Of a stretch of DNA of 64,000 nt, positions 47,599 through 64,000 are shown in pieces. The notes beneath the pieces were generated by a model. The model was not told the origin of the DNA and did not search any database. It saw nothing but the letters and a program-made list of their open reading frames with translations. The stretch is from Lachnospiraceae bacterium (GTDB lineage: Bacteria; Bacillota; Clostridia; Lachnospirales; Lachnospiraceae), in assembly GCA_017621815.1 (NCBI GenBank), contig JAGASK010000026.1:42311-106310 (forward strand). Direction: 5' to 3'. Position numbers and translations under genes: made by a program. Each line of letters begins with the position of its first letter. The stretch's first letter is position 1.

Positions 47599-47886
47599 AT
47601 GGGAGAATACGGAACAATCAGAATTCATCTTTCCGAATTGATAACAGAATCCGGCATCAGCAAAAACAAGCTGTGCCACAGAGCAGAATTGCAGAGAGCG
47701 CAGTTAAATAATTACTGCAATAATAATGTTGTGAGAATGGATATTGATGTGCTGGCAAGAATCTGTACAGCTATGAACTGCCGGATTAGTGATTTACTGG
47801 AATTCATTCCGCCTGATGCCGAAACAACGGCAGAAGGAGAAGAAGCACAAGAAGAAGCAAAAAAAGAAGCAAACGATAATAGTTAA
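47599..47886 (+). CDS. Small XRE-family HTH regulator
   Basis: A 95-residue Cro/CI-type protein: helix-turn-helix across about residues 10-65 (SKNKLCHRAELQRAQLNNY then VLARICTAMNCRISDLLEF), and an acidic tail. DNA-binding helix 3 is RAQLNNYCNNN. GGGAGAAG lies 10 bases before the ATG. It precedes the agr-like signalling genes; the upstream 150 bases are AT-rich without a clear promoter. Confidence 0.85.
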   Translation: MGEYGTIRIHLSELITESGISKNKLCHRAELQRAQLNNYCNNNVVRMDIDVLARICTAMNCRISDLLEFIPPDAETTAEGEEAQEEAKKEANDNS

Positions 47887-47932
47887 ATACTTTTTGTGTA
47901 AAAGAATTATGGCTTACGGAGTTGATAAAAAT

Positions 47933-48703
47933 ATGTATGAAATTGCAATATGCGATGATTCATCCCTGGACAGAATGGCATTAAGGCAGGACATTGAACA
48001 AAACAGTGAATTGCAGATGGGATTGAACTTTCATGAATACTGTTCCGGTAAAGAATTATTAGATGGGATGAATGAAATTAAGTTTTCCATGATTTTTTTG
48101 GATATTCAGATGCCGGAAATGGATGGGGAAATAGTAGCAGAAGAAATCAGAAAGAGAGACAGTGATGTAATATTAATGTTTTGGACCGGATATGCAGACC
48201 CCACCCCTCACAGTATTAAAGCTCAGCCATTTCGGTTTATGAAGAAAGGAATGCCGGAGGAAAATAAAAGAAAAGATATAAATGATGCAATTCAGAAGAT
48301 GATTGAAAAATCACAGGTCCCTACTTTTCTGGGCAAGATGGGCAGCAGCAGATTGATTTTGAAGCCGGATGATATTGTATATATAGAAAAATACAAAAAA
48401 TCTGTTAAAGTGCATATTTCCAACGCGGCAAAAAAATTCCATTGTATACAGGCAGAAGACAATAATGAACCGGATATCAGATTTTTTGAGAAACTGGGAA
48501 TTCTGTATGATGAATTCAAAGAGTTTGGCTTTGGATATCCTCATGACAGTTATATTATTAACTTTAAATATATGACATCCTGTTCAGGAAATGAAATTAA
48601 ACTGGAAGGCTTTCATGATGTCGTGTTCAAGGTGTCCCGTAGTAAAGCAGTTGAGTTTAATCGTTTAAAGAGGGAATATTTAACAGCAAAATACGGGAGA
48701 TAA
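47933..48703 (+). CDS. LytTR response regulator (AgrA-like), copy 1
   Basis: A 256-residue regulator. Receiver with D8/D9-type acidic pair in IAICDDSS and phosphoacceptor D57 in IFLDIQMPEMDG; LytTR DNA-binding domain from about 145 to 250. I chose ATG 47933 for its canonical MYEIAICDD start; ATG 47909 is possible and neither has a strong ribosome binding site. Pairs with the histidine kinase 6 bases downstream. Confidence 0.88.
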   Translation: MYEIAICDDSSLDRMALRQDIEQNSELQMGLNFHEYCSGKELLDGMNEIKFSMIFLDIQMPEMDGEIVAEEIRKRDSDVILMFWTGYADPTPHSIKAQPFRFMKKGMPEENKRKDINDAIQKMIEKSQVPTFLGKMGSSRLILKPDDIVYIEKYKKSVKVHISNAAKKFHCIQAEDNNEPDIRFFEKLGILYDEFKEFGFGYPHDSYIINFKYMTSCSGNEIKLEGFHDVVFKVSRSKAVEFNRLKREYLTAKYGR

Positions 48704-48709
48704 GCTAAA

Positions 48710-50029
48710 ATGAAATTTGAATATGTTCTGCTGCTAAAGTTACTTTTTTGCAGTCTTGATGGGTTAATGCTTTGTATTTTTTTTAAGGCATTATTTAAAA
48801 GACAAATGAAAAGGCTTAAGTTTTTATGTAATTTTACAGTAATGATATTGGTTTTAGTTACAATAAATTTATTAAATGTTTCTTTGCTTAAACTTTTGGC
48901 AGTACCATTATCATTTTTTGTGTTTTCTATTTTGACATTTCAAATATCTGTACATAAGGGATTTATATATACGTTTATCTATTATATTGTATTCTGCTGC
49001 GGTAAAGAGATGGCATTTGAAATGCTGCTGCGCCTTTTATCGGCAATATTTCCTCAAATGAATATGATGTTAACGTCTGTTCAGGGAACAGTATTCCTGT
49101 TGGCAGAGTATGTCTTTTCATTTTTGTTTTTGATATATGTGAAACGCTATATTTCAAAAATTGAAATCGGTGAAGACAATCGTTTTGAATGGTATATGCT
49201 GATTATGCCCATGGCATCAATCATGATTTTGTTCAGTTTTGTTTATATGGATTATCCCAATGACAGATATATACAGATTCTTATGTGCGGAGGCGCATTC
49301 TTACTTTATTTTTCCAATATAGTCATTTTTATTATACTTGCTCATTTTACCGAAGCTATGAACCGGGCGAAGGCAGTGGAATTATCAGCTTTGAAAAAGG
49401 ATTTAGAGATAAGCAATTTTGAAAACATAGAGAAAATGAATATTGTATACAGGAAATATATGCATGATATTCATAAGTATTTTAATCAAATAAGATATTT
49501 GGCCAAAGCAGGTGAAAATGAAATAATTGTAAATATTATCGATGGATGGGAAAAGGGATTGGCAAGTGAGAAACCAATTCTGTACACCGGCAGTGCGGTA
49601 CTTAATTCGATTTTGACGGAATACTCAAAAAAGGCAGGAGAAAGAGATGTAGAGTTCTCCATTTTTGCGGAAGATAATATAAAATTGGATTTTATTTCCG
49701 ATACGGATAAGATTCCCCTGTTTGGAAATCTTCTTGAAAATGCGCTGGAAGCTGCATCGAAATGTGATAAGAACAATCGGAAGATTCAGATACGGCTGTT
49801 TATGGGAAGTGAATATATTCTTGTATTTCAAGTAAAGAATACATGGATTATGGATGCGGAAAAAGAGGGGATGCGCCTGCTCAGTACTAAGAAGAATGCC
49901 GGGAATCATGGATTGGGAGTAGGAATTATCCGGGAGCTTGCGAAGAAATATGCAGGTAATCTGGAATTAGAAGAACTGGAAGAATGGTTTATAGCCACAC
50001 TTATGCTTTCTATTGTCATGAATAAGTAA
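48710..50029 (+). CDS. GHKL histidine kinase (AgrC-like), copy 1
   Basis: A 439-residue sensor with about six membrane helices in the first 225 residues, as in AgrC peptide receptors. The likely phosphorylated His is about residue 252 in YMHDIHKYFNQI; the ATPase domain has GNLLENALEAA and the NHGLGVGIIREL G-box. Extracellular loops would read a peptide signal. Cognate regulator is the gene just upstream. Confidence 0.87.
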   Translation: MKFEYVLLLKLLFCSLDGLMLCIFFKALFKRQMKRLKFLCNFTVMILVLVTINLLNVSLLKLLAVPLSFFVFSILTFQISVHKGFIYTFIYYIVFCCGKEMAFEMLLRLLSAIFPQMNMMLTSVQGTVFLLAEYVFSFLFLIYVKRYISKIEIGEDNRFEWYMLIMPMASIMILFSFVYMDYPNDRYIQILMCGGAFLLYFSNIVIFIILAHFTEAMNRAKAVELSALKKDLEISNFENIEKMNIVYRKYMHDIHKYFNQIRYLAKAGENEIIVNIIDGWEKGLASEKPILYTGSAVLNSILTEYSKKAGERDVEFSIFAEDNIKLDFISDTDKIPLFGNLLENALEAASKCDKNNRKIQIRLFMGSEYILVFQVKNTWIMDAEKEGMRLLSTKKNAGNHGLGVGIIRELAKKYAGNLELEELEEWFIATLMLSIVMNK

Positions 50030-50054
50030 AGTGCCAATTTTGTCCTTTTTACGG

Positions 50055-50060
50055 TATAAT
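50055..50060 (+). promoter_or_regulatory. Possible promoter for the second two-component pair
   Basis: Consensus TATAAT at 50055-50060 in the 134-base gap; the -35 region is poor. The gap is AT-rich and otherwise featureless. Confidence 0.4.
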
Positions 50061-50163
50061 TTTGGAATCTTTATTGTTTGGAACATTATTTTGAGGTAAG
50101 GTTAAATAAGGAAGAATTCCAGAAATCAAATGATAAAATAAATAAACAAAGGAATCAATAACA

Positions 50164-50898
50164 ATGTACAATATATTGATATGTGATGATGAACCGGTAA
50201 CATGCACATACATAGAAGGGATTTTTTCTGATTATGCAAAGAAGAATAAAATTGATATAAAAGTAGAATTGTTTTTTAATGGACAAGAGTTACTGGAGTA
50301 TATAAGTAAGAATAGTAATATCGATTTATTGTTTCTCGATATTGAATTGCCTGATAACAGTGGGGCAGAAGTTGGTAAAATTCTTCGGGAGAATTTACAA
50401 AATGAAGTAATTCAAATTGTATTTATTTCATCAAAAGAAAAGTATGCCATGCAGCTTTTCAGGATCAGGCCTTTTGATTTTCTGATAAAACCGCTTGACG
50501 AGAAAATGATTATTGATGTTTTTGAAGAATACGAAAAAATATATTCTAAAAACAGGAAATTTTTTGAATATAAGATAGGGAAGCAGACTGAAAAAATCCT
50601 GTTATCGGAAATTATGTACTTTATGTGCGATAATAGAAAAATCTGTATCGTAACAACCGGTGAAAAAATATTCTTTTACGGAAATATGAAAAAGATGCGT
50701 GAAACATTTAATGAAGACGGATTTTGGTCAGTGCATAATTCCTTTATTATCAATATCATGTATGTAAAATTATTCAGAGACAGAGAAATAGTTATGTGTG
50801 ACGGCAATGTTGTACCGATAAGCAATGCTTATAAAAAGAGCATAAGGAAAAGGTTGATGGAATTAGATGAGGTAAAAAGAGATGGCAGGTTGGGATAG
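50164..50898 (+). CDS. LytTR response regulator (AgrA-like), copy 2
   Basis: A 244-residue regulator. Acidic pair in ILICDDEP, phosphoacceptor D59 in LLFLDIELPDNSG, conserved Lys in FDFLIKPLD, and a LytTR domain from about 140 (KTEKILLSEIMYFM). Only distantly similar to copy 1. It overlaps the next kinase gene by 17 bases. AAAGGAATC precedes the ATG. Confidence 0.88.
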   Translation: MYNILICDDEPVTCTYIEGIFSDYAKKNKIDIKVELFFNGQELLEYISKNSNIDLLFLDIELPDNSGAEVGKILRENLQNEVIQIVFISSKEKYAMQLFRIRPFDFLIKPLDEKMIIDVFEEYEKIYSKNRKFFEYKIGKQTEKILLSEIMYFMCDNRKICIVTTGEKIFFYGNMKKMRETFNEDGFWSVHNSFIINIMYVKLFRDREIVMCDGNVVPISNAYKKSIRKRLMELDEVKRDGRLG

Positions 50899-52153
50899 TA
50901 TATTTTACTTGTTTTTAAATGCCTTCAGAATTTATATTATATATAGATTTATAGGATTATTTTTTGAAGATAATGCAAAGAGAGCATGGGTACCATGCCT
51001 TTATTTCGTTTTTTATTTATTTAACAGCATTGAGTATATTTTCATTAACATTGACATAGTGAATCTGGCTGTAAATTTTGGTGGGCTTCTTTTGATAACA
51101 TTGATTGGTTATCAGGGCAGTATGATCAGAAAAATTCTGGCAGTTGTTTTAAATTTGGGTATAGGAGTTTTAGCGGAAAATCTTGCATGGGTATTATTTG
51201 TGAAAGGAAAACCACCGCAAATGGAAAGATATGGGATTTTCTTTTTTACGTTTGTCCTTTTTTTACTGGAGCTGATTATCGAAAGAACTGTAAAATTGCG
51301 TAAAGGCATTGAAGTACCATTATATAAAAATATTTTTCTGGCATTAATTTCTCTGGGAAGTATGTTTGTCGCCAATGTGTTGATTGAAAGCTCTTATCGG
51401 AAAGTTCCCTGGCTCATAGCGGCACTGTGTATTTTATTGATGATAAATTTATTTGTTTTGTACTTGTATGAAAAAATTTTGGATGACTATGTAAATCTGA
51501 AAGAAAAAGAAATGTACAACCTGCAGCTTACGATGTACCAGAACCAGTTAAAAATTATGGAAAGTGTTAATGATACTTATGACAGGTTACGACATGATAT
51601 GAAACACCATATTGTTTTGCTTTCAGACTATATAGAAAATGAGGAGAATGAAGAAGCATTACAGTATTTGTCTAAAATAACTCATTATATGAGTAACGGC
51701 AATCAATATATTGAGACAGGAAACAGGAGTATAGACAGTATATTGAATTATATAATTGAAGAAATTCACAGAGACGGCGGCAGTGTAATTACAGATATCA
51801 AGATTGCTGAAAACATTCCGATTGATGATTTTGATATTAACATAATTCTGAGTAATCTTCTGATGAACGCATGTGAAGCTATTCAAAAGTGTGATGAGAA
51901 AAAGCTTGAAATAATAATGAGGTATAACAGGGGAATATTGAGCTTTAAGTTTATTAATACATATGACGGATTGATTAAGGACAAGAGGGGAAAACTACAG
52001 TCAACTAAAGAAAAGTCGGAAAATCATGGAATTGGTCTTACAAGTGTAAAAAAGACAATAGAAAAATATAATGGAGAAATGAAGCTTCAATATACAGGGA
52101 ATCTATTTGAAGCAGATGTTCTCTTGTATATTTCAGATGAGGAAAATGAATAA
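50882..52153 (+). CDS. GHKL histidine kinase (AgrC-like), copy 2
   Basis: A 423-residue AgrC-like receptor: about six hydrophobic segments (to residue 200), then RLRHDMKHHIVLL with the phosphorylated His near 237, NLLMNACEA N-box, and HGIGLTSVKKT G-box. It overlaps its regulator and lies directly before agrD-agrB, so it is the better candidate for the cognate receptor of that peptide. Confidence 0.88.
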   Translation: MAGWDSIFYLFLNAFRIYIIYRFIGLFFEDNAKRAWVPCLYFVFYLFNSIEYIFINIDIVNLAVNFGGLLLITLIGYQGSMIRKILAVVLNLGIGVLAENLAWVLFVKGKPPQMERYGIFFFTFVLFLLELIIERTVKLRKGIEVPLYKNIFLALISLGSMFVANVLIESSYRKVPWLIAALCILLMINLFVLYLYEKILDDYVNLKEKEMYNLQLTMYQNQLKIMESVNDTYDRLRHDMKHHIVLLSDYIENEENEEALQYLSKITHYMSNGNQYIETGNRSIDSILNYIIEEIHRDGGSVITDIKIAENIPIDDFDINIILSNLLMNACEAIQKCDEKKLEIIMRYNRGILSFKFINTYDGLIKDKRGKLQSTKEKSENHGIGLTSVKKTIEKYNGEMKLQYTGNLFEADVLLYISDEENE

Positions 52154-52161
52154 GGAGACAG

Positions 52162-52200
52162 GCAGGAATCATTTCGAAATTTTGGTTCCTGCTTTTTTTT
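52162..52200 (+). terminator. Intrinsic terminator after the second kinase
   Basis: A 10-bp stem (52162-52171 with 52183-52192) and eight T bases (52193-52200). It separates the two-component genes from agrD-agrB, which therefore use their own promoter. Confidence 0.87.
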
Positions 52201-52251
52201 ATCCTGAATTATTTCGCAGATGACTAAAAATTACAATAATCGACATAAAAA

Positions 52252-52290
52252 TTTCAACTTGAAAAAACAGGGATAAAAATATGATACAGT
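52252..52290 (+). promoter_or_regulatory. agrD promoter with overlapping palindrome
   Basis: TACAGT (52285-52290) with extended TG (52282-52283) is the best -10; TTGAAA (52259-52264) could be the -35 but with a long 20-base spacer. A perfect palindrome TTTCAA-C-TTGAAA (52252-52264) covers that -35, which is where a LytTR activator or repressor could bind. Confidence 0.5.
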
Positions 52291-52324
52291 TTATTTAATA
52301 ATAAATCACATGGAGGTAAAAAAG

Positions 52325-52471
52325 ATGAAAAGATTTTTAGTAAAGGTTTCCAAAGGGCTTTTATGCATGGCGATGCTGGTATCCACAGTAATGGTTAATG
52401 CGACTTGTTATTATAAGCTTTATCAGGAAGAACTTCCGGCAGAGCTTAACAAGTTAAGAAAGCATGTTTAG
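52325..52471 (+). CDS. agrD: AgrD-like cyclic autoinducer peptide precursor
   Basis: A 48-codon gene. The peptide has a basic amphipathic N-terminal helix (MKRFLVKVSKGLL), then NATCYYKL, then the AgrD-type tail YQEELPAELNKL. In Staphylococcus AgrD, the thiolactone ring is made from a Cys plus four residues, directly before a VEVPKEL tail; by this alignment the ring here is Cys28-Leu32, CYYKL, released by AgrB. GGAGG lies 8 bases before the ATG; it overlaps agrB by 8 bases. Confidence 0.88.
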   Translation: MKRFLVKVSKGLLCMAMLVSTVMVNATCYYKLYQEELPAELNKLRKHV

Positions 52472-53030
52472 CAGTTGGCTTTCGGATATCATTATTAAAA
52501 AGAGCAACGTGCCGGAAGAAGACATAGTGGTATTGAAGTACGGGCTTTTAAAAATGTTTATGCTGATTGAAGATATAATATTCACTCTGGCATTAGGGCT
52601 TGCTTTGGGAATCATCACAGATAGTATCATTTTTCAGATATCATTTATGCTTCTGAGATTATATGCAGGCGGCTATCATTCCAAAACGGAAATAAGGTGT
52701 AAAATCCATTCCGTTTTGGTAACAGCCGTCTCTTTGACCGGTATAAGGCTGATGCCGGCAGGATATCCGCCAATGTGTTTTATTATGATTATGGCCAGCC
52801 TCATAATAGGAATTTTGTCTCCTGTGGAGGCAAAAAACAAGCCTTTGTCTGAAACGGAGAAAGAAGTTAATTACAAAAAAACGATTGGCATTTTAATAAT
52901 GTTAAATCTGATTGCAATCATTGATTTGATTTTCAGGTGGGGAGTTTTTTACAGAGCAATTACGATAGTCGTATCGGGAGTGGGAATTTTAGTGATTGCG
53001 GGGGAAATAGACAATAGGAGTAAGAGATAA
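52464..53030 (+). CDS. agrB: AgrB-like peptide-processing membrane protease
   Basis: A 188-residue integral membrane cysteine endopeptidase. The catalytic H72 and C79 (LYAGGYHSKTEIRC) show the 7-residue spacing of AgrB H77/C84. About five membrane helices. It cleaves AgrD and cyclises the peptide. Overlaps agrD (8 bases) and the following VWA gene (1 base), so all three are coupled. Confidence 0.92.
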   Translation: MFSSWLSDIIIKKSNVPEEDIVVLKYGLLKMFMLIEDIIFTLALGLALGIITDSIIFQISFMLLRLYAGGYHSKTEIRCKIHSVLVTAVSLTGIRLMPAGYPPMCFIMIMASLIIGILSPVEAKNKPLSETEKEVNYKKTIGILIMLNLIAIIDLIFRWGVFYRAITIVVSGVGILVIAGEIDNRSKR

Positions 53031-54814
53031 TGAAATCTTTGATGTATGGGGATAGGAAGACGGAAATGAAAGGCAAAAAGAAAATAATATTATTTTCAAT
53101 AGTGCTTTTCTTGTTTATATTTCCGTGCATTACATTAAATGCCCAGGAAATAAATGCAGATGAGACAATGGATGTAATCATTGTTCTGGACAACAGTCAG
53201 TCTATGACAAATGTTGATAGTGACTACAGAGCATCAGAGTTCATCAAAGCACTTACCAGTATATTACCAGGCAGTTACCGCACAGGTCTCGTAGCCTACA
53301 ATCAGGAAGTCTGCATCAGCCTGCCGCCGGAAAGCAGTCCGGAGGATATAGAGCAGGCGTTGCAGGATATTTCCTACAGAAATTACGGAAATGCAGGAGC
53401 GGGGCTTTCCGAAGCAGTGTCATATCTTAAAAAGAGCCGGAATAAAAAGAAAATTCTTGTCATATCCGACGGTGAAAACCTGATGAATTCAAAGGAGAGC
53501 ACAGAGGAATCGGTTCAGCTTTTTGAAGCAGCCCTGGAGGAAGCAAAGAACCAAAATATCACCATAGATATCATAAATCTGGGAAACAGAATAGAAGACA
53601 GTCCCAATATCTATCCGGCAGCAGCCGCAACAGGAGGGAAAATTTATGATCTGGAAAATGGAGGGGAACTTGAAGCTTTTGCTGAAAAGTATTTATTTGA
53701 AGAACTGAAAATAGAAAGCCGTCCGGTGGGAAAAATCAGCGGCAATACCGGGGAGTTAAAGATAACGCTGCCGGACTGTCTGATGGAAAAGGCAAAAATT
53801 GTTTTGCTTGGCAGGCAGCAGAATGAAAATATAGTGTCAGGCTGTGAGGCCGGGAAAATACAGGTTCTGAAAGGGACAGGGCACACAGTTCTGGAACTTG
53901 AAAATCCGGTTTCCGGGGATATTACAGTACAGATAAGTTCTGAAGAAAGCATGAACATTAATGCATATCTGATGGCAGAGTACCGATATGAAGCAGAAGC
54001 TGAATGCGAATATCTTCCTGATATGGAGCAGGTGGAAATCATCATCAGCCTTAAAAACAAAGGGGGCAGAAGCCTTCTGACAGGGCATTTGGCTAATGGT
54101 GGGCTTTCGGTGCTTCTGGGAGGGAAAGAGTGCGATTATGTGATAAGAGATGAAAAACTTATTGTAAACAGAAGCGCTTTACAGGATGAAACAGTGGAGC
54201 TTACCTTGCAGTTTGGGGATGGTTTTGGAATTTATTACGGAGAAAAGAATTTAAAAGCAGAGATTATCCTTCCAAAGCCGGAAGAAGAGCCGGAGACGGA
54301 CTGGTTTTTCCTTTCAGTGATTATTATTTTTGCGGCAGCGCTGCTGCTGATTTTCCTGATGGCAGTAAGAAAGAAAAAAGCGCCTGCAGCCGGGAAAAGA
54401 ATGATTGAGGAAAGCAGGATGCTTCCAAAGGAAAGCGGCATTCGGGGCAATGATTTTTGCGGTAAGCTGATGGTTTATGTGATACATAACAGGGATGATA
54501 TTGATTACCCTCCCGAAAGCATTAACTTATTTGCCAGATGCAGCCGGGAGGTGATTACCCTTGAATGGATTCTGGATGCCTGCAATCTGCCCCTTAATCT
54601 GAAGGGAGCGGAAAAAATTGTGATGAAACCGGGGGATGACAGAAGCCTGATTATTAAGAACAACGGAGTGGCAGCTGCAATGAAGGGCAGGGAACTTCTA
54701 GTTAAAGGACGCTCTTATCATATGTATTATCATGAAAAAGTAACTTTTATTTTTGATAAGGAGGATACAGAAATAGAAGTTCACTATAAGGATTTAAAGC
54801 CAAACGAAAGATGA
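53030..54814 (+). CDS. VWA-domain membrane protein with an FHA-like C-terminal part
   Basis: A 594-residue protein. Signal sequence (about 18-38, ending LNA), extracellular VWA domain (about 45-225) with MIDAS residues in LDNSQS (D54, S56, S58) and ISDGE but without the usual Thr, a beta-rich region to about 420, one membrane helix (424-446), and a cytoplasmic domain with an FHA-like strand pattern (LIIKNNGVAA then KGRELLVKG). The FHA assignment is tentative. It starts inside the agrB stop codon with AGGAG 9 bases upstream, so it is in the agr transcript. Confidence 0.8.
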   Translation: MKSLMYGDRKTEMKGKKKIILFSIVLFLFIFPCITLNAQEINADETMDVIIVLDNSQSMTNVDSDYRASEFIKALTSILPGSYRTGLVAYNQEVCISLPPESSPEDIEQALQDISYRNYGNAGAGLSEAVSYLKKSRNKKKILVISDGENLMNSKESTEESVQLFEAALEEAKNQNITIDIINLGNRIEDSPNIYPAAAATGGKIYDLENGGELEAFAEKYLFEELKIESRPVGKISGNTGELKITLPDCLMEKAKIVLLGRQQNENIVSGCEAGKIQVLKGTGHTVLELENPVSGDITVQISSEESMNINAYLMAEYRYEAEAECEYLPDMEQVEIIISLKNKGGRSLLTGHLANGGLSVLLGGKECDYVIRDEKLIVNRSALQDETVELTLQFGDGFGIYYGEKNLKAEIILPKPEEEPETDWFFLSVIIIFAAALLLIFLMAVRKKKAPAAGKRMIEESRMLPKESGIRGNDFCGKLMVYVIHNRDDIDYPPESINLFARCSREVITLEWILDACNLPLNLKGAEKIVMKPGDDRSLIIKNNGVAAAMKGRELLVKGRSYHMYYHEKVTFIFDKEDTEIEVHYKDLKPNER

Positions 54815-54826
54815 CAGAGCACAGAA

Positions 54827-54894: not shown

Positions 54895-57075
54895 ATGAGC
54901 ATTATCAGACAGACGAACAGGACATTGTTGTTTGAGGAAATCAATCCGGAGAAGCCGGACCTTTTAACTCTGGTAGGTGATGTAAGGGGGATTGACAGCT
55001 TAAGCGACGAAAAAATCAAAGAAATGAATGAGGCATTGCTGGTAAAAAGCTTTGATGAATTTATAACAAAGTTTGACCCGGTAGTATATTCTTTTTTCAA
55101 TGCCAATAACCAGAAAATTATGTACACGCTTCAAAAGCCGGAAAGCATTCCTGAAGATATGCTGACGCCGATTCACTTAAACCGTCAGAATGACTTCTTA
55201 AAAATGCTGATGTCCCTGGTGGAGGCCAAACGTTCCCAGAGCATTATCAATGTGGACTTCCGGTTCGATAAGCTGACGGATATGATATCCCCGAAAAAGG
55301 TCATGGAGGATATCAAGCAAAACCGTAAAGAGCTTCAGTACACCTACAAAACATATGCGCAGCTTGAGGACGGAGACCCACATAAGCTGGATCTGGCAGA
55401 TAAACTCAATGTGATGTTTGAGGAAGCCAGCGTCAATTATAACAATGTACTTGCCATGCTTCCCCTTGCCATAGCGGATATTAAAACAAGGCTGCTTCTG
55501 ACAGAAGCCGTAGAGAAGAAAGATAACACTCCACTTGCCCTTGGTGTTTTAAGCATGGATGAAAAAGGTGAACTGAAGGTGCTCGAAGCACCGAAGCAGG
55601 AAACGGCAGAGCTTATGGTGGTGGATGACAATGTGAATGCAGGACTGATTGCGGCACTTGAGGATGATTATGAAGCTCTGAATGAAGAAAGCAGCGATTA
55701 TGTAAAAGCCCTTGTTACAAGAACCTATTGTCCCCTTGCTTCCACCATGGTGAGCAGCATTGATGTGAAGCAGGAGGTTGCCAATTATAATTCCTATCTG
55801 GAATTTTACAAGAACGCTAAGGATGATTTTATTAAGGCAGTAAAGCCTCTGATTGAAAAAATATTGGGCGTATGGGCATTCTTTGAACAATATCCCGGGA
55901 ACTTAAAGGGCATGAAGCCGAGCTTATTTATTACCAATGTATCCAATGACATGCTGGTTAAGAGCAGCAACCTTCCGAGACTGATTGCTTACTTAAATAC
56001 TGTAAATGCAAAAAATGATTTTACCAATACCGTGTGGTATGGAATTGTGCCTTCTGTTTCTCTGGACCAGAATTCAGGCATCAGACTCACCAGACAGCGC
56101 TTTAAGGGAAATGAAACCACGGAAAAAACGGGCATAAACAGCGTGGAAGCCCTTGTAAGGCTTCTGGATGTGCTGAAGGATTATTCGGTACAGTGCTTTT
56201 TCAGCTATGAAACAGGGGATAAAACTACTTTTAATTATATGGCAACGGAAGGAATTGAAAAGTTTGAGGAACGCTGCAGTTCACTGGTGGGAAAGGCGTA
56301 CAGCGAGTTTGCTATTCCCTGTATTCCCAACTTCACCATTATTCCCAAGGAAAAGTCAGGCGTCATTCTGGATAAGCGTATGCTGGTGAATGAAAATGAT
56401 GTGGCAGAGTTATCCAAAGAAAAAGAGGATATTATGAAGCTTTGGATTGACGGCGTTTATGTGGGAGCCGCTTATATTGCAGCCGGACTTGTGGCGGCAT
56501 ATCAGTGCCCTGATTACCTGAAAGAGAAATTTAAGAAAAATGTAGATGAGGAACTTCCCGGCGTCAGATTTGACATTGAAGCGGGAGACCATCCGCTCCG
56601 GGTTCAAACGGTTATGGCAAAGGAAATTACCGGTTTTACCAACTCAATTAAGAATGAGATTAACAGGCGCAGCTTCGGTTTTGTATTTTCTTCCGAAAAT
56701 GCAATGCTGGGGACGGAAAATATCCATAACATCATGGTCTATAAAGCAAGAAACCTTATGAATGACGGCAAGACCTATGAACCGATTTATAAAACCCAGG
56801 TTACCACTTATATCGAAAGAGTTCTGCGTCATGCCACCAGCGACTACAAGCAGGAAAATATTGTACAGTTTTTCTCAGGCAATCCTGCCAGCCAGAAGAG
56901 CAGGTGGCTTGAAAAGAAAAACTGCGTCAATGCGGTACTGGGAGCCGGAGACGATGTGGAATATGAAATTGATGAAGCAAACGGATACTGCACATTAAAT
57001 ATCACATTTAATGGAAATGTGAAGAACCTTGAGGTCGAAATTAACAGATTCAACTCACAAAGCAGGGCAATATAA
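54895..57075 (+). CDS. Contractile sheath-like protein (TssC/phage-sheath type, putative)
   Basis: A 726-residue soluble protein with no signal or membrane helix. The last 100 residues resemble sheath C-terminal parts: TYIERVLRHATSDYKQENIV, a conserved-looking helix, and a closing beta hairpin ending in LEVEINRF. The N-terminal 110 residues (SFDEFITKFDPVVYSFF, LMSLVEAKRS) recall TssB-like helices, so a TssB-TssC fusion is possible. Direct upstream of two Hcp-like tube genes. Evidence is pattern and context, not a database match; GAAAGAGGAAGG precedes the ATG. Confidence 0.6.
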   Translation: MSIIRQTNRTLLFEEINPEKPDLLTLVGDVRGIDSLSDEKIKEMNEALLVKSFDEFITKFDPVVYSFFNANNQKIMYTLQKPESIPEDMLTPIHLNRQNDFLKMLMSLVEAKRSQSIINVDFRFDKLTDMISPKKVMEDIKQNRKELQYTYKTYAQLEDGDPHKLDLADKLNVMFEEASVNYNNVLAMLPLAIADIKTRLLLTEAVEKKDNTPLALGVLSMDEKGELKVLEAPKQETAELMVVDDNVNAGLIAALEDDYEALNEESSDYVKALVTRTYCPLASTMVSSIDVKQEVANYNSYLEFYKNAKDDFIKAVKPLIEKILGVWAFFEQYPGNLKGMKPSLFITNVSNDMLVKSSNLPRLIAYLNTVNAKNDFTNTVWYGIVPSVSLDQNSGIRLTRQRFKGNETTEKTGINSVEALVRLLDVLKDYSVQCFFSYETGDKTTFNYMATEGIEKFEERCSSLVGKAYSEFAIPCIPNFTIIPKEKSGVILDKRMLVNENDVAELSKEKEDIMKLWIDGVYVGAAYIAAGLVAAYQCPDYLKEKFKKNVDEELPGVRFDIEAGDHPLRVQTVMAKEITGFTNSIKNEINRRSFGFVFSSENAMLGTENIHNIMVYKARNLMNDGKTYEPIYKTQVTTYIERVLRHATSDYKQENIVQFFSGNPASQKSRWLEKKNCVNAVLGAGDDVEYEIDEANGYCTLNITFNGNVKNLEVEINRFNSQSRAI

Positions 57076-57120: not shown

Positions 57121-57549
57121 ATGGGTTTCAGATTGAATGTGTCAGGAGGTGCGGAGCAGATAGCTCTGGACGAAAAAAGTATTAAAAAAGTGGACTTCGG
57201 CTCTGAGTCGGCGCCTGATTCCAATGCAAGGGCAACGGATTTCGGGGTGTCCATGAAAGTGTGGGGCAAAATGCTCTATAAGCTTGGCGGAGAAGGAAAT
57301 GATGGTACCCTGGGACTTTCCAAATGGTCGGTGGTTCCTTCGGAAAAAGCAGACTGCTATAGAAATGCCACAGTGGAAGTAGTTTCAGCAGGACAGGTAG
57401 TCCGCAAATTTGAAGTTCCCAATGCGTTTGTCATGGAATATTCAGAGGAAATGGACGACGAAACCGGAGTGGGAACCTTTTATCTGCATATGAAGCAGAA
57501 AAAGGACGAAAACGACAAGATAAAAATCGAAGGTGGATACGCAATGTAA
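57121..57549 (+). CDS. Hcp-like tube protein 1 (putative)
   Basis: A 142-residue beta-rich protein. SNARATDFG, KWSVVPSEKADCYR, VPNAFVMEYSEEMDDETG and GTFYLHMKQ follow the order of T6SS/phage tube proteins: an N-terminal strand pair, extended loop, and a terminal NAF-Y-E-TF-L-K beta sheet, as in TssD. Homologous to the following gene. AAAGGAGG before the ATG. Confidence 0.65.
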   Translation: MGFRLNVSGGAEQIALDEKSIKKVDFGSESAPDSNARATDFGVSMKVWGKMLYKLGGEGNDGTLGLSKWSVVPSEKADCYRNATVEVVSAGQVVRKFEVPNAFVMEYSEEMDDETGVGTFYLHMKQKKDENDKIKIEGGYAM

Positions 57550-57584: not shown

Positions 57585-58010
57585 ATGGCATTTGTTGTAA
57601 AAGTGGAAGGCGCAGAAGCCTTTGAAATATCCAAGGAATGTGTAAAAAGTGTAAAGATGACTACCGATATTCCCCTGGACTCCAATGCGAGAACAAAGGA
57701 TGTTGGCGCAACCATGACAATTAAAGGGAAAATCCTGACAGCCGTAGACGGAGATCCTTTCGACAGCACAAGAAAAATTGCGCTGTGGTCAGTAGTTCCG
57801 GCAGAAAAGGCGGACAGCTACAGGAAAGTGACAGTTGAATATGTGGCAGCAGGCATTATGGAAAGAAAATACTGTTTCCCCAATGCTTTTGTTGTGGATT
57901 ATAAAGAAGACTACGGCGATGAGGCAGGAACAGGAACCTTTACACTGGTAATTAAGCAGAAAAAAGACAAAATCAGCACAGTTACAGTAGAAGGCGGGTA
58001 TTCCGCATAG
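57585..58010 (+). CDS. Hcp-like tube protein 2 (putative)
   Basis: A 141-residue paralogue of the preceding gene (shared SNAR, LWSVVPAEKADSYR, PNAFVVDYKEDY, GTFTLVIKQKKD and a closing EGGY). Hcp-fold assignment rests on the same pattern. Two tandem tube-type genes next to a sheath-like gene fit a contractile system with two tube subunits or a chaperone-like variant. Confidence 0.65.
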   Translation: MAFVVKVEGAEAFEISKECVKSVKMTTDIPLDSNARTKDVGATMTIKGKILTAVDGDPFDSTRKIALWSVVPAEKADSYRKVTVEYVAAGIMERKYCFPNAFVVDYKEDYGDEAGTGTFTLVIKQKKDKISTVTVEGGYSA

Positions 58011-58030
58011 GGGTTTTCAGTGTGTCAGGC

Positions 58031-58073
58031 AAAGAGCGTATGCAGCTGAAGACTAAGGTTGGGTACGCTCTTT
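58031..58073 (+). other. Stem-loop between tube 2 and J-domain genes
   Basis: AAAGAGCGTA (58031-58040) pairs perfectly with TACGCTCTTT (58064-58073). The only T bases after the stem are those of its own arm. It could be a weak terminator or processing site that limits downstream expression. Confidence 0.5.
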
Positions 58074-58092
58074 GAAAAGAGAGGAATCAGGG

Positions 58093-58503
58093 GTGGACTA
58101 TTATAAAATTCTTGGAATAGAACAGCAGGCAGATGAAGAGCAGATTAAGCAGGCTTATCGTAAGCTTGCCAAGAAATATCATCCGGATTTGAATCCCGAT
58201 AATCCGGAGGCGGAAGAAAAGTTTAAAAACATTGTAGAGGCATATGAGACGTTAGGAGATGCCGCAAAGAGAAAAGAATATGATTTAAAAAGAAAAAAGA
58301 CCGGAATAAAAGGCGGCGCAGGAGAAAAGAAAGCTGCCAAAGCTCCGGATTTTGATATAGGCAATTTTACAAGGGATATGGAAAAATATTTTGGCTTTTC
58401 CTTTTCAGGGGGCGATGCGGATGTGCAGGGGCAGAGCGCCAAAGGAAAGAAAAATCCCCTTGATGTGACGGACATGTTTGAAGCATTTATGAAGGTAAAA
58501 TAA
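58093..58503 (+). CDS. J-domain co-chaperone in the injection-system cluster
   Basis: A 136-residue DnaJ-like protein: J-domain with HPD in KKYHPDLNP and YRKLA (about 1-70), then a basic linker and a Gly-rich C-terminal segment; no Zn-finger or C-terminal substrate domain. I place the start at GTG 58093 with GAGGAA 8 bases upstream, because TTG 58072 falls inside the preceding stem. It could help fold or load the large RHS effector. Confidence 0.82.
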
Positions 58504-58549
58504 AGTTTCGGAGAATAAAATGCGGAATTGTAATAAATATCTAATGGTT

Positions 58550-58588: not shown

Positions 58589-58603
58589 AAGGGGAAATAA
58601 GAG

Positions 58604-61600
58604 ATGGGGAAGGAATATCTGGTTGAGGGCGCAGAACTGATTTGTGTAAACGGGAAAGGGATTAAGAAATTAAAAATTGAAGAAAAGCGCGGGTGTACGG
58701 AAAACGGAAATGAGAAAGCAAACTGTAAGGATTGCGTAGCAGAAAAAAATATTCCCTATTTTGATTACTGCAAAAAAAATACAAAAGACCATAAGTGCAA
58801 GGGTTATATGAAGCTTGCAGGCAAATGGGAAAATACGGAAGGGCTGTCTTTCAGCCGGGAAAAGATTAACGGTGAGGAAGCCATTACCATGAGCAGTGTT
58901 CTTGTCTGTGAAAAGGGAGGGCTGATTCTGCCTGTTACCTCAGGACAGGGAGGCAGGGAAATGTTGGATATGGGGCTGTTCGGTCTCAGATATCTGAAAG
59001 CTGCAGGCTGGGCGAAGGGGAAGGGGCTGGGCTGCCAGATATTCGGCTGGGACCCCATTAACCTAAATACCGGAAATTTTATCTACGAAAAAGAAGACCT
59101 TGTGATACCGGGGATCACCACCCTTTCCTTCCACATTTTTTATAACTCCATGGATGAGGAAGGGGGAAGCCTTGGAAAGGGCTGGCACCACAGCCATGAG
59201 GTGAGGATAAGGAGGAAAGAAAAGGAACTGCTGGCGGTCTGCCTGGGGGACGGAAAGGAGATTCCTTTCCGCAGCCTTACAAGCGGCCTGTATGCGCCGG
59301 TACTGGGGGATAAGGGGCTGCTGGCAGAGGATAAGGAAGGCTTCCGGTATGCCGGGAGCGGCGGCGTAGAGTACAGCTTCAATAAAGAAGGACAGCTTCT
59401 TTGTAAAAAGGATAAAAACGGAAATAAAGATACCTGTACTTATAATGCCAAAGGGCAGCTTGCCAGTGTAAAAGGGGCAAACGGGGGAGAATTATTCTTT
59501 ACCTACAATAAAGAAAGAAACCTCATTGGCGTAAAGGATCATACGGGCAGGGAAGTGCGCCTGTGGTACCGCTACGGGAAGCTGTGGAAATTCGTCAATG
59601 CCTCAGGGCATGCCTATACCTACGAATACAACGTGAACGGAAGGCTGGAAAGCGTGCTGACACCCAGGGGAATCGTCGGGGTGAAGAATGAATATGATGC
59701 GGGGAACCGGGTCGTGAAGCAGACCATGCCGGACGGCAGTGTGGTGGAGCTTAAGTATGACGACAAAAACAGGCGCACCTATGTAAAGGAGCCTGACGGG
59801 AACCTGGTTTCCTATGAAAGCGATGACAGGTGCCGCAATACAAAAACAGTGTACGGGGACGGGGAGGAAAGCTTCCGGTACAATGACAAAAACCAGAGAA
59901 TACTGTATACGGACAAGAACGGCAGCCAGACCAGATACCGTTATGATGAGAACGGGAACCTGACCGGAATCATCAATGCATTAGGGGAGCAGACAGAGTT
60001 TACCTACAATAAGGAGGGAAACCTGCTTACGGCAGCAGTGGGAGGAATGGTGCGCATCAGAAACCGCTATGATGAAGGCGGGAGGCTGACGGAAACAGAG
60101 GATGCCCTGGGAAGATGCCGGAAGACGGCTTATGGCCCCAAGGGGCTTCCGGCATGCCTGACCCTGCCTGACGGGAGCGTTACCAGACTCCTTCGGGATG
60201 AAAGGGGAAATATAGAAAAAATCATTGACCCTTACGGCGGGGAGACCAGCTACGTTTATGATGAGTTAAACAGGGTAACGGAAACCACGGATGCAGAGGG
60301 GAATACCGCCAGGTACCGGTATGATGAAGGGAACCGCCTGCTTGAGGTAATGAATGCAGAGGGAAATACCAGGGCATATGCTTATAATGAAAGCGGCAGA
60401 CCGGTGCAGGTGAAGGACTTTGACGGGGGCATCCTGTCCGTAGCCTACAATGCCATGGGAAAACCGGAAAAGCTGACCGATAAGGAAGGTCGGGAAACAA
60501 AACGCACCTATAATGAAATGGGAAATATTTCAGAGGAAATATCCCCTTCCGGCGCAGTGACCTGTTTTTCCTATGATAAAAACAGCCGCCTTTCCAGGGT
60601 GGAAGTAAAAAAGGACAGTAAGGAATGGGAGGGCGGCTGCGTCATTACCTATGCCCATGACCCGGAGGGAAACCTTGTGAAGGTACAGGCGGGAGACGGA
60701 AGGGAAGTCCTTTCGGAAACCTGTTTTGTTTATGACGCATTAAACAGGGTAACAGAAGCTGTCAGCCCTTCCGGCGGAAGGACAGTTTATACCTATGATG
60801 CTTCAGGCCATGTGGACAGTATCACAGACCCGGCAGGGAACCGCCGCAGTTTTTCCTATAATGAGGCAGGGGAACTGATGGAGGAAACAGATATCCGGGG
60901 GAATACCACCCGGTATGAATACAACCTCCTGGGACAGCCAGTTTCCATTACGGACGGCGCAGGCAGACAGACAAGGCATTTTTATCTGCCGGGAGGGCGC
61001 CTTAAAAATACCGTTTACCCTGATGGGAGGAAGATAAGCTATACCTATGACAGGCTGGGAAGAATCCTGACGAAAACGGACGGACAGGGCTATCAGCTGT
61101 CCTATGGGTATGACAGCATGGGGAGGGTCATAAGCGTTACCAGCAGCACGGGCCAGAAGAAATCCTATACTTATGATGCACTGGGAAATGCAGCCTCCAT
61201 GACGGATGCCAATGGAAATACCACCGTCTATGAATATACCTTAAGCGGCAGGTTAAAGGCGGTAACAGACGCCCTGGGAGGCAGGGCGGAGTATGCTTAT
61301 GATAAGGAAGACCGCCTGGTTTACATCTGCCGGAAGGGGAAAGCAGGGGAGGAAGAGCGGGAAACTTTTTATGAAAGAAATCCCTTAGGGCAGGTGGAAT
61401 GCATCAGGGATGCCCTTGGGAATGAGGAGCATTTCAGTTATGACGCCCTTGGCAGGACCATAGGAAAAACAGACAGGGACGGATACCATACGGCTTATTC
61501 CTATACACCGGACGGAAAGGTAAAGGGCATTTCTTATGACGATGGCACCGGGGTGGAAATGGAATATACCGCCCTGCGCCAGCTTGCCCGTGTCAGGGAC

Positions 61601-63727
61601 TGGCTTGGGGAAACAAGGATTGAAAGGGATGAAGCAGGAAATCCCCTCCGCATCACGGACCACAAGGGAAGATGCGTGTCCTATGAATGGGGAGCCATGG
61701 GAGAGCGGAAAAGCATTGCCTACCCTGACGGAAGGAAGGTCAGGTACCAGTATGACGGGCTGCTGCGGCTTAAGGGGATGCAGATGGAAAGGGAAACCGG
61801 GATAAAGGCAGGGGGATTTGAAGAAATCAGGTACCGTTACGATGAAACGGGAAGGGTTTCGGAAAAACTGTTCCCGGATGGAATACGCACCTGCTGGCTC
61901 TATGATGAAAGGGGATTGCTGAAGGAGCTTGTCCATAAGGACAGCCATGGGATCCTTGACAGGTACCGGTATGAATATGACCCCATGGGAAACAAGACCG
62001 CCGTCACAAAAGAGAGGCGGGGGCTTTCAGAGGAAGCGGGACGGTATGAGTACGGCTATGATGCTTTAAGTAGGCTTTCGCAGGTTTCCCGAAACGGGGA
62101 AATGTTAAGGAGCTATGAATACGATTCCTTCAGCAACAGGAGCTGCCTTAAGGATTTTGGAAAGGGGAAGAGCTGCTTTTACCATTATGATGTTTTAAAC
62201 AGGCTGACGGCGGCAGAAGAGCAGCAGGGAGAAGCCGCGGTGCAAAAGGCTTATGCTTATGACGGCAGGGGAAATTTGGTCAGGGAGGAAACTGACGGAA
62301 ACCTGTTCCATGGATATGAATACGGAGCCATGAACCGGCTTACCGGGGCGTGGGATAATAAGGGGAAAAAAGCGGAATATTTTTATAACGGCCTGGGACA
62401 GAGAGTAGGAAGGACTGTCAGCACAGGAAATGATCCAGGCGTTAATAATGCCATAAATTCCGTCAGCTCCGTTTACAGTGCTGACGGAGAGGAAGAGGAT
62501 TATATCCTGGATTTGACACGTCCGTACCACAATCTTCTTGAAATCAGGAAGGGCAGCCACTGCCAAAGCTTTTTCTTTGACGGAAGCGTGGCAGCCATGG
62601 AAGAAGGCGGAGGGGGCTTTGCCAGTGCTGCAGGAAGTGAAAGGCGATGCCTGCCGGGGCTGCATTATTATCTCCATGATGAGCTGGGAAGCCCCGTGCG
62701 TGTCAGCGGATACCGGGCAGAAAGCGGTTCTTTTGCAGGCATAAGTGATTACCTTACCTATGGGTATGATGAATTCGGCAATGATTTGGGGAAAGAACCG
62801 AAGGAAACAGGCATACCGAATCCCTATGACAGACAGGGAGAGGGACAGCCTTTCGGATATACAGGCTACCGGCATGACGGAATAAGCGGGTCTTATTTTG
62901 CCCAGGCAAGGGAGTATAAGCCTGAGGCAGGCAGGTTTATGGCAGAGGATGTGATTAAAGGAAACGGCGCCGCACCGATGACACTGAATCAGTATGGGTA
63001 TTGCTGGGGAAATCCGCTGATATGGGTAGATTTGAATGGGCTTGACCCGGCATGGTATGAAGGGATTTATGCTCATCTACAATTGGAAGCAGAATTTATG
63101 GCATATTATGCATGGGGAGAATTAAGGGATATGTTTATTAATAAAGAATTCCCTGATGTGTTTGGTTTGGTAAATGTGTATATACCGGGCGGCGGAAGAT
63201 TTGGAGGGAGAGGATATGCAGATATGGTTTTATATGAAAATAATACTGTAAATATATATGAGATTAAGCCAGAAAATCATCATGATGATACAACTAAATA
63301 TGATAAAGGAATAAAACAATTATTAAGATATATTGAACATTATCCCAGATTTGGAAGGAATATAAATGGAGGTGAAAGAAAATATTTGGAACCCATGTTA
63401 GATGTGGAATACCCGTTTGTTTTGGATCCTAAAGGAGCAACAATCGTATATCATATGTATGAAAATTCACCAGGAATGGTATATTATGAAATTATTAGAA
63501 ATGATAAAGAACTCTCGCCTGAAAAAGTAAAACAAAAAGTTGCAGAACCATCATTTAAAAATGTAATGAAATTTATGGCAGTTGGGTTAGCGAGCACAGT
63601 AGTACTAGAGGAATTGCTTAATAAGTTGGAATTGTATATGGGACCTATTATTATGCTCAATCCGGATAGTTATCAGTTTTTAAAGACACCGTATGGAGAA
63701 GGAAATGACTGCTGTTCATATTCATAA
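58604..63727 (+). CDS. RHS-repeat effector with PAAR-like N-terminus and nuclease-like tip
   Basis: A 1707-residue polymorphic toxin. Residues 1-125: Cys-rich PAAR-like (DUF4280-type) domain, with GAELICVNG and SSVLVCEKGGLILPVTSGQ. Residues about 145-215: RHS-associated opening, DPINLNTGNFIYEKEDL. Then dozens of YD repeats (Y-D/G-R/N-L/G) forming the shell. The RHS core ends near LNQYGYCWGNPLIWVDLNG (about 1462-1480). The remaining 225 residues are a distinct tip with ADMVLYENN and YEIKP (D1540, E1553, K1555), a PD-(D/E)XK nuclease-like arrangement. The tip is AT-rich versus the core. It follows the J-domain gene. Confidence 0.9.
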   Translation: MGKEYLVEGAELICVNGKGIKKLKIEEKRGCTENGNEKANCKDCVAEKNIPYFDYCKKNTKDHKCKGYMKLAGKWENTEGLSFSREKINGEEAITMSSVLVCEKGGLILPVTSGQGGREMLDMGLFGLRYLKAAGWAKGKGLGCQIFGWDPINLNTGNFIYEKEDLVIPGITTLSFHIFYNSMDEEGGSLGKGWHHSHEVRIRRKEKELLAVCLGDGKEIPFRSLTSGLYAPVLGDKGLLAEDKEGFRYAGSGGVEYSFNKEGQLLCKKDKNGNKDTCTYNAKGQLASVKGANGGELFFTYNKERNLIGVKDHTGREVRLWYRYGKLWKFVNASGHAYTYEYNVNGRLESVLTPRGIVGVKNEYDAGNRVVKQTMPDGSVVELKYDDKNRRTYVKEPDGNLVSYESDDRCRNTKTVYGDGEESFRYNDKNQRILYTDKNGSQTRYRYDENGNLTGIINALGEQTEFTYNKEGNLLTAAVGGMVRIRNRYDEGGRLTETEDALGRCRKTAYGPKGLPACLTLPDGSVTRLLRDERGNIEKIIDPYGGETSYVYDELNRVTETTDAEGNTARYRYDEGNRLLEVMNAEGNTRAYAYNESGRPVQVKDFDGGILSVAYNAMGKPEKLTDKEGRETKRTYNEMGNISEEISPSGAVTCFSYDKNSRLSRVEVKKDSKEWEGGCVITYAHDPEGNLVKVQAGDGREVLSETCFVYDALNRVTEAVSPSGGRTVYTYDASGHVDSITDPAGNRRSFSYNEAGELMEETDIRGNTTRYEYNLLGQPVSITDGAGRQTRHFYLPGGRLKNTVYPDGRKISYTYDRLGRILTKTDGQGYQLSYGYDSMGRVISVTSSTGQKKSYTYDALGNAASMTDANGNTTVYEYTLSGRLKAVTDALGGRAEYAYDKEDRLVYICRKGKAGEEERETFYERNPLGQVECIRDALGNEEHFSYDALGRTIGKTDRDGYHTAYSYTPDGKVKGISYDDGTGVEMEYTALRQLARVRDWLGETRIERDEAGNPLRITDHKGRCVSYEWGAMGERKSIAYPDGRKVRYQYDGLLRLKGMQMERETGIKAGGFEEIRYRYDETGRVSEKLFPDGIRTCWLYDERGLLKELVHKDSHGILDRYRYEYDPMGNKTAVTKERRGLSEEAGRYEYGYDALSRLSQVSRNGEMLRSYEYDSFSNRSCLKDFGKGKSCFYHYDVLNRLTAAEEQQGEAAVQKAYAYDGRGNLVREETDGNLFHGYEYGAMNRLTGAWDNKGKKAEYFYNGLGQRVGRTVSTGNDPGVNNAINSVSSVYSADGEEEDYILDLTRPYHNLLEIRKGSHCQSFFFDGSVAAMEEGGGGFASAAGSERRCLPGLHYYLHDELGSPVRVSGYRAESGSFAGISDYLTYGYDEFGNDLGKEPKETGIPNPYDRQGEGQPFGYTGYRHDGISGSYFAQAREYKPEAGRFMAEDVIKGNGAAPMTLNQYGYCWGNPLIWVDLNGLDPAWYEGIYAHLQLEAEFMAYYAWGELRDMFINKEFPDVFGLVNVYIPGGGRFGGRGYADMVLYENNTVNIYEIKPENHHDDTTKYDKGIKQLLRYIEHYPRFGRNINGGERKYLEPMLDVEYPFVLDPKGATIVYHMYENSPGMVYYEIIRNDKELSPEKVKQKVAEPSFKNVMKFMAVGLASTVVLEELLNKLELYMGPIIMLNPDSYQFLKTPYGEGNDCCSYS

Positions 63728-63781
63728 AATATAATAGTATATTATTATATTTCATAACGTTTAATAAAGAAGGAGGATGTG

Positions 63782-63820
63782 ATGTATTTTACGGAGTATA
63801 TCACAAGCAATAGAGAATGA
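63782..63820 (+). CDS. Short upstream ORF coupled to the candidate immunity gene
   Basis: A 12-codon ORF (MYFTEYITSNRE) with AGGAGG at 63771-63776, five bases before its ATG. Its stop overlaps the next ATG as ATGA at 63817-63820, so translation of the downstream gene may depend on it. Too short to be judged as a protein. Confidence 0.4.
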   Translation: MYFTEYITSNRE

Positions 63821-64000
63821 ATATTACAAAAAATATAGAAAAAATAATAGGATATATGCTAAAGGAACAGGGATTTGTTTTAAAAAAGGATATACGTGTC
63901 TGGCAGTATACAAGAAAAAAGGGAGAAATAAACCAGAATATCATTTTTCTTGGACACCGGTATTTCAAGGGTCATATCAAGGCGATTTTTTATGCAGACG
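63817..64000 (+). CDS. Candidate immunity protein, 3' end beyond window
   Basis: At least 61 codons, open at the window edge. It starts MNITKNIEKIIGYMLKEQGF and continues with VWQYTRKKGEINQNIIFLGH, a small mixed alpha/beta protein rich in Lys and Ile. No recognised family. It lies 89 bases after the toxin tip, is equally AT-rich, and has the position expected of an RHS toxin immunity gene. Function inferred from position only. Confidence 0.5.
   Translation, partial: MNITKNIEKIIGYMLKEQGFVLKKDIRVWQYTRKKGEINQNIIFLGHRYFKGHIKAIFYAD

Follow-up and report, generated by a model that had tools for sequence, protein, structure and literature searches.

The window analysed here is a stretch of 64,000 nucleotides from a Lachnospiraceae bacterium. 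It ends where contig C14 of the source genome ends, and genes of the locus beyond the RHS region are absent from it. A sequence-only reading had described a run of genes on a single strand, from a helix-turn-helix (HTH) gene through to an RHS gene. This order was borne out by the ORF table and by family scans: the HTH gene, two LytTR/GHKL pairs, agrD, agrB, a VWA gene, a gene for a 726-aa protein, two tube candidates, a J-protein gene and the RHS gene all lie on the plus strand. The features are as follows.

47599..47886, + strand, HTH_26 (Cro/C1-type) regulator (PF13443, E 2.8e-19)
47939..48703, + strand, LytTR response regulator of pair 1 (Response_reg E 2.4e-12, LytTR E 3.1e-5)
48710..50029, + strand, GHKL sensor kinase of pair 1 (HATPase_c_5 E 1.4e-20)
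50164..50898, + strand, LytTR response regulator of pair 2, the pair adjoining agrD/agrB (LytTR E 8e-17, Response_reg E 2.7e-15)
50882..52153, + strand, GHKL sensor kinase of pair 2 (HATPase_c_5 E 1.9e-20)
52154..52201, + strand, terminator-like hairpin with T-run between the kinase 2 gene and agrD (RNA fold of 52154-52205, -18.5 kcal/mol)
52225..52255, + strand, imperfect direct repeat TAAAAATTAC / TAAAAATTTC, period 21, candidate LytTR operator (single-locus p 0.052)
52325..52471 (ORF from 52310), + strand, agrD, autoinducing peptide precursor (TIGR04223 E 1.7e-5, 24.8 bits, cut-off 19)
52464..53030, + strand, agrB, peptide-processing membrane protease (PF04647 E 3.7e-29, 101.8 bits, cut-off 23)
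53030..54814 (alternative start 53066), + strand, VWA membrane protein (PF13519 E 2.4e-14; hydropathy)
54895..57075, + strand, candidate contractile sheath protein of 726 aa (conserved alignment A1; weak TssB-like N-terminus)
57121..57549, + strand, possible Hcp-like tube protein 1 (aligned to protein 2 in A2; joint profile against PDB Hcp1 6bdc)
57585..58010, + strand, possible Hcp-like tube protein 2 (PF17642 TssD E 0.036, below cut-off; alignment A2)
58072..58503, + strand, J-domain protein (PF00226 E 6e-28)
58604..63727, + strand, RHS polymorphic toxin (predicted) with N-terminal DUF4280 (PF05593 in 22 stretches, PF20148, PF14107 E 3.9e-11, TIGR03696)
63817..64000, + strand, start of an ORF cut off by the contig end, whose position alone makes it a candidate immunity gene (ORF table)

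The components by which an Agr system is recognised are present in the window, namely AgrB, an AgrD adjoining agrB, and a GHKL kinase with a LytTR regulator. In the AgrB alignment, the His column is kept in 37 of 38 sequences and the Cys column in all 38, and we take these two columns to be the catalytic residues. The VWA domain is flanked by two hydrophobic segments according to hydropathy. The RHS protein contains RHS/YD repeats and an RHS core-associated domain and is a predicted toxin; an EIKP motif seen by eye at its C-terminus resembles the ELKP tabulated for a restriction-endonuclease-fold toxin (PMC3482391). The ORF piece at the contig end has no Pfam match, and Rfam gave no match at gathering scores across 40000-64000. 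Two minor observations lie upstream. A small ORF (46058-46402) carries tandem seven-residue repeats (LDEKVTN...), with matches that are only coiled-coil-like and below cut-off, and at 38142-40301, away from the cluster, a PP2C-like gene recognised by eye precedes a gene for a Ser/Thr kinase (Pkinase E 2.8e-46).

The position of AgrB was surveyed in 112 loci, comprising the window, the best 80 of 180 loci from a genome contig collection, 30 further stretches and G401b. Those with under 2.3 kb of upstream sequence, namely L030, L041, L048, L050, L053, L064 and L081, were dropped, which left 105; of the seven, L041 has an AgrB fragment at its edge. The search patterns behind the best 80 of the 180 loci derive from the protein of the window itself, which favours near relatives, and the 105 may include same-species pairs (the known duplicates G088, G387 and G016 were not refetched). 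With an AgrB profile built from seeds shorter than 230 aa and a match threshold of E<=1e-5, AgrB was found at the VWA gene on the same strand in 19 of the 105 loci (17 of 103 without the window and G401b, the latter having been reached through its AgrB). It is inverted near the VWA gene in two, L083 and L056, with an HTH ORF in between in L056. At the same threshold there were no matches elsewhere in the upstream stretches of the 105 loci, and 84 have no AgrB nearby. The linked loci extend to sheath subtypes about 73% (L182) and about 58% (L193 and L196) identical to that of the window. An AgrD-like ORF adjoins agrB in the linked loci that extend far enough; in G401b and L193 it lies between agrB and the VWA gene and has Ser where Cys is usual. 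G401b (G401:C19; L179 and L180) is a second agr-fronted cluster in the genome of L046 and contains nearly all the genes, with no J-protein ORF picked.

A sample of 397 family genomes, assembled without regard to agr, has 23 sheath loci, of which 4 are linked (G000, G274, G302 and G111; G016 in this sample has only 2.1 kb upstream), against about 0.03 expected from the 36 AgrBs counted in its 20 sheath genomes, which total 69 Mb. AgrB occurs in 138 of the 397, and the VWA gene adjoins 2 of the 30 best-scoring AgrB loci from family genomes. Among 20 genomes picked for carrying the cluster, AgrB is found in 17 and in none of the other three (those of L038, L047 and L054), and in G398, G402, G805, G806 and G807 the linked AgrB is the sole AgrB found. 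Because 84 of the 105 loci have no nearby AgrB and 3 of the 20 cluster genomes have none at all, agr is not required by the cluster. Conserved linkage in relatives, the point on which the earlier reading had offered its claim to checking, was nevertheless encountered: agrB occupies the same slot on the same strand in 19 loci, across these sheath subtypes, with AgrB fused to the VWA protein in five and with signs of repeated recruitment. Both the linkage of agr to the cluster and the AgrB-VWA fusion are thus recurrent.

Phylogenetic analysis was performed with two sets of AgrBs. In a careful tree of 36 sequences, with L162 labelled unlinked, the linked AgrBs need 5 changes, 4 of them forced by well-supported branches, and a single clade of linked AgrBs is rejected (p-AU 4.5e-78). 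A quick tree of 65 AgrBs (SH-aLRT only), in which L162 was relabelled as linked since it adjoins a second cluster, needs a minimum of 11 changes, 7 of them forced, of which some may be losses; several long branches, the window's included, are uncertainly placed. The label unlinked denotes no VWA gene within the fetched flank of at most 1.5 kb (shortened by contig ends in L172 and L176); L154F and L156F were omitted as second finds of L037 and L040, and L217 and L236, two of the 30 best-scoring AgrB loci, gave no row. On these trees the linked AgrBs are polyphyletic, pointing to repeated recruitment of AgrB to the slot. Eight linked AgrBs that were compared with the window's are 23-33% identical to it. 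The pair 1 regulator of the window shares 53% identity with its counterpart in L033 and 50% with that in L034, both of them agr-linked loci, and the pair 1 kinase is 52% identical to the kinases beside agrD in the two. Another regulator/kinase/agrD/agrB set lies between pair 1 and the VWA gene, so that the front end of the window looks like an agr cassette replacement, in which the L033/L034-type pair persists and a new agr set stands before the VWA gene. Where agrB is missing, the slot contains a regulator alone (L031, L183, L181), a regulator and a kinase (L063, L189, L197) or, in many loci, nothing recognised. Given the large share of loci without nearby AgrB, agr can be no more than one regulator among several that serve in this slot. 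Lookalikes of a BlaI-type repressor and a BlaR1-type sensor were seen by eye in the agr slot of L046 (6265-7970) and L047 (6149-7855).

The sequence-only reading had let the HTH gene, both sensor pairs, agrD and agrB run directly into the VWA gene. The hairpin of -18.5 kcal/mol separates the kinase 2 gene from agrD; because this terminator-like structure is strong, agrD likely opens a new transcription unit, and agrD-agrB-VWA-sheath is probably transcribed apart from the sensor genes. The consensus terminator scan allows loops up to 8 and hence omits this hairpin. Within that loop limit the scan picks out no such site between any of the genes from agrD to the RHS gene, and it calls promoter- and terminator-like sites as often in shuffled sequence as in the window. 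The likely start of agrD is 52325 rather than 52310, with a GGAGG ribosome site at 52312-52316. The stop codon of agrB (TAA, 53028-53030) shares one base with the first possible ATG of the VWA gene at 53030. An alternative VWA start at 53066, 12 codons downstream, is served by a better ribosome site (AGGAAG, 53054-53059), for which reason the translational link between agrB and the VWA gene, taken as given before, is kept here as a possible coupling; the one-base overlap exists only with use of the first ATG. In L033 and L034, an A+T-rich hairpin with a T-run, similar in the two loci, lies between agrB and the VWA gene; it may be a terminator or attenuator that could end transcription, and is therefore evidence against a single transcript in those two loci.

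Direct repeats before agrD were sought in the 140 bases 5' of the gene (10-base repeats, period 20-22, 500 dinucleotide shuffles per locus). They reach p<=0.052 in 7 of 16 related loci and p<=0.05 in 5 of 16, with a Fisher p of 3.2e-5 over the 16 loci that is inflated by their relatedness. In 9 of 16 the repeats are not above shuffles (p 0.996 in L034), and by this test L033 and L034 have no direct repeats before agrD. The clearest is exact at 10 of 10 bases and belongs to L044, a locus with fused AgrB and VWA; by the same test repeats are absent from L035. The repeats sit 15-87 bases 5' of agrD and no single motif is common to the loci. Because of these varying distances and the absence of a common motif, the repeats are only suggested as a candidate LytTR operator, with predicted binding.

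The genes and their recurrence are probably best explained, with real room for error, by an Agr peptide circuit that amplifies itself and has come to regulate a type VI-like injection cluster from its front end. AgrB would cut and cyclise AgrD, and the peptide would exit the cell; the neighbouring GHKL kinase would sense it and activate the LytTR regulator, which would bind the direct repeats before agrD and drive one transcript spanning agrD, agrB, the VWA protein, the sheath candidate, the tube proteins, the J-protein and the RHS cargo. The weapon would thus stand within the autoinduction loop rather than as a distant target, and both machine and cargo would therefore be produced when cells sharing a peptide type are dense. 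The slot for the regulator would be exchangeable, being filled in relatives by different agr cassettes, by regulators without agrBD or by other genes. We infer peptide control, contraction and the killing of neighbours from the gene content. The earlier claim of an agr-governed weapon stands in part: the linkage recurs in relatives, but most loci have no nearby AgrB and the weapon genes are only partly recognisable (VgrG-like, weakly Hcp-like, DUF4280/RHS).

The 726-aa protein is strongly conserved, with a mean column identity of 64% in alignment A1 (48 rows). The family sample has it in 20 of 397 genomes and the phylum sample in 13 of 398; in the genome contig collection 180 loci were confirmed and the best 80 retained, the hosts among these 80 including Lachnospiraceae, Pelosinus, Lachnoanaerobaculum, Clostridium, Paenibacillus, Brevibacillus and others. 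At E<0.01, Pfam, NCBIfam, PHROGs and PDB yield no match to the protein, and the phage and plasmid collections contain no relative. An hhalign matrix (11 x 12) compared cluster families with twelve T6SS reference families, aligned from E. coli W and ten plasmids, with VgrG from two sequences only. In this matrix the best match of the 726-aa protein is TssB (score 30.3, probability 9.1%), all other non-VgrG pairs scoring 21.9 or less. Its N-terminus alone scores 30.5 against TssB (28%), and 25.7 (8.3%) with more rows, against a null maximum of 19.2 from 60 column-permuted TssB alignments; the C-terminus gave no signal above background against TssC. The gene that had been called sheath-like therefore keeps that name as a weak call based on one TssB-like profile match at the N-terminus, next to the lack of significant matches in the four databases. 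The two tube candidates (141-142 aa) are related to each other (alignment A2), and their joint profile matches PDB Hcp1 6bdc at E 0.0026. Protein 1 alone has no family match in Pfam, NCBIfam or PHROGs. The best T6SS match of the tube candidates is Hcp (hhalign E 0.032, probability 1.6%), no better than a c24-TssE pair at E 0.026; because this score matches chance pairs, their Hcp kinship rests on the PDB match and on the Pfam TssD match (E 0.036), which one of the two proteins shows, so that the name tube-like is modestly justified.

Profiles of the genes that follow the RHS region in relatives located further members of the locus where contig C4 of the source genome ends. These are two VgrG-like genes (one at G000:C4:109058-110446), two FHA genes, a PP2C gene, a PP2C-like protein of 606 aa, six unnamed families (c17, c18, c20, c21 (twice), c23 and c24) and an 866-aa protein of family c19. 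The motifs DFGTSNTT and DCGGGTTD of the c19 alignment (A3) look Hsp70/actin-like by eye; for an Hsp70 identity of this 872-aa family, the PDB profile search was empty at 0.01 and NCBIfam DnaK was reached only at E 0.18. The source genome thus seems to carry the whole locus, divided between the ends of contigs C14 and C4. The VgrG-like family matches VgrG in hhalign with 93.9% probability (E 1.5e-7, two sequences on the VgrG side) and TIGR01646 at E 7.5e-7, below its cut-off. Taken across families, the profiles suggest a kinship that is clear for VgrG and weak for TssB and Hcp. The sheath, tube and RHS genes may instead form a phage-tail-derived assembly with a different role, which we regard as unlikely, if still a serious contender. 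It would fit the profile comparison, in which TssC, TssE, TssF, TssG, TssK, TssA, TssH and DotU have no clear counterpart, the chance-level hhalign score between the tube proteins and Hcp, and the several core genes that are unnamed. The VgrG-like genes, the PDB Hcp1 match, the DUF4280 heads found on RHS or phage-lysozyme proteins in cluster loci, and the variable ORFs between the J-protein and FHA genes argue against it. Such variable ORFs were seen in L031, L036 and L038 and may mark an effector hotspot.

The cluster is accordingly compared with known systems as a type VI-like injection cluster of Bacillota, presumably contractile. It resembles the T6SS, the FHA/PP2C phosphorylation module of the latter included, in having FHA and PP2C proteins, a spike like VgrG, RHS cargo with DUF4280, a candidate tube that is weakly Hcp-like and a weakly TssB-like sheath N-terminus. 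DUF4280 is described as PAAR-like (PMC5014421). It differs in having a single 726-aa sheath candidate instead of TssB plus TssC, a J-protein, an Hsp70-like protein (motifs by eye) and Bacillota hosts. Profile comparison of c16-c24 with alignments of TssE, F, G, K, A, H and DotU gave nothing significant, the best pairs being c24-TssE (E 0.026) and c24-TssA (E 0.04), both below 2% probability. Membership of the canonical T6SS was set aside. With the eCIS/PLTS (Afp/PVC) of Bacillota the cluster shares phage-tail-derived content in Paenibacillaceae and Clostridiales and toxin cargo. Phage-tail clusters of Bacillota have been located by baseplate J, sheath, VgrG and gp25, always with an AAA+ ATPase (PMC4122934). 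Among the cluster proteins scanned, Pfam recognises no phage sheath, baseplate J, gp25, LysM or gp19 tube, and no AAA+ ATPase of such a core. Membership of the eCIS was set aside. An AAA+ gene lies upstream in L033. The cluster may represent a new branch of injection systems.

The likeness to the Agr systems of Staphylococcus (agrBDCA) and clostridia (agrBD) lies in AgrB, AgrD, the GHKL kinase, the LytTR regulator and the candidate repeats before agrD. In S. aureus, agr output runs via RNAIII and a second promoter; here agrD and agrB come first in the candidate output operon and the weapon genes follow at once. Phage phiCDHM1 of C. difficile carries agr genes (PMC3901668), and since agr genes there travel with phage genes, it is a precedent for agr near tail-type genes; it differs in being a whole phage, as against an injection cluster with VWA, FHA and RHS genes. 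Quorum-sensing control of the T6SS has been reported for Chromobacterium violaceum (PMC9430734) and Aliivibrio wodanis (PMC8861277), where a density signal likewise governs an injection weapon through another signal class and regulator. In these two systems the signalling genes are not known to be part of the weapon operon. No published description of agrBD joined to a contractile injection system was found among the titles and openings of abstracts listed (mostly open-access papers, preprints excluded), and none of an AgrB-VWA fusion. Agr and T6SS-like clusters are known kinds; their combination at one slot, with fusions, appears new.

In five loci (L035, L037, L039, L040 and L044), 5 of the 19 that are linked on the same strand, AgrB and VWA form one stop-to-stop ORF of 776-792 aa that keeps the AgrB motif GGYH...C. 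The five fall in a single AgrB clade, which also includes the unfused L049, and in all six the regulator and kinase genes are divergent from agrD-agrB-VWA. In L182 the VWA gene is broken into two ORFs, and in most Paenibacillus and Brevibacillus loci it is divergent from the sheath gene. These in-frame fusions, with an AgrB-VWA adjacency that persists when the regulators lie on the opposite strand, would suit a reading in which AgrB and the VWA protein are one membrane unit, for peptide processing or anchoring of the apparatus, and density sensing is secondary. This is distinctly unlikely: AgrB cannot be an essential part of a machine that in most loci has no agrB nearby, agrD and the regulator/kinase genes also occur in the linked loci as signalling predicts, and for fusions from one clade with an unfused member the loss of a stop between overlapping genes suffices. 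A bolder form of it, to which we give little credence, would make AgrB physically part of the injection machine's membrane unit. The fusion would then couple peptide maturation to a firing site marked by the VWA protein, so that exporting the self-peptide would at once license the weapon, as a kin-recognition trigger; the machine would belong to a branch of type VI-like systems in Bacillota that has no name as yet.

That a mobile agr cassette merely landed beside the cluster, with no regulation, is very improbable: the many clusters without nearby agr and the low identity of linked AgrBs to that of the window speak for it, but AgrB arrived at one slot time after time, always by the VWA gene and nowhere else upstream, and gene fusions arose too. 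Agr as a functionless neighbour was set aside.

Agr is the classic peptide quorum system of Gram-positive bacteria, and Gram-positive contractile weapons are little understood. With agr as front end of the weapon, cassettes that recur at one slot and in some loci are joined to a machine protein would open contact killing gated by a peptide to direct tests. The arrangement suggests that Lachnospiraceae and related Clostridia may arm a weapon by sensing their own numbers. It would also indicate a widespread Bacillota injection cluster, of which the sheath candidate and several core genes have no curated Pfam or NCBIfam name, and the sheath and tube candidates no PHROGs name either; these would be targets for annotation, with a new sheath candidate for structural biology. 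At G000:C4:90000-95516 (L246), two large ORFs of 805 and at least 1035 aa follow the injection genes; the first contains a GHTSSGKT nucleotide-binding motif and the second begins similarly, and they may be defence genes.
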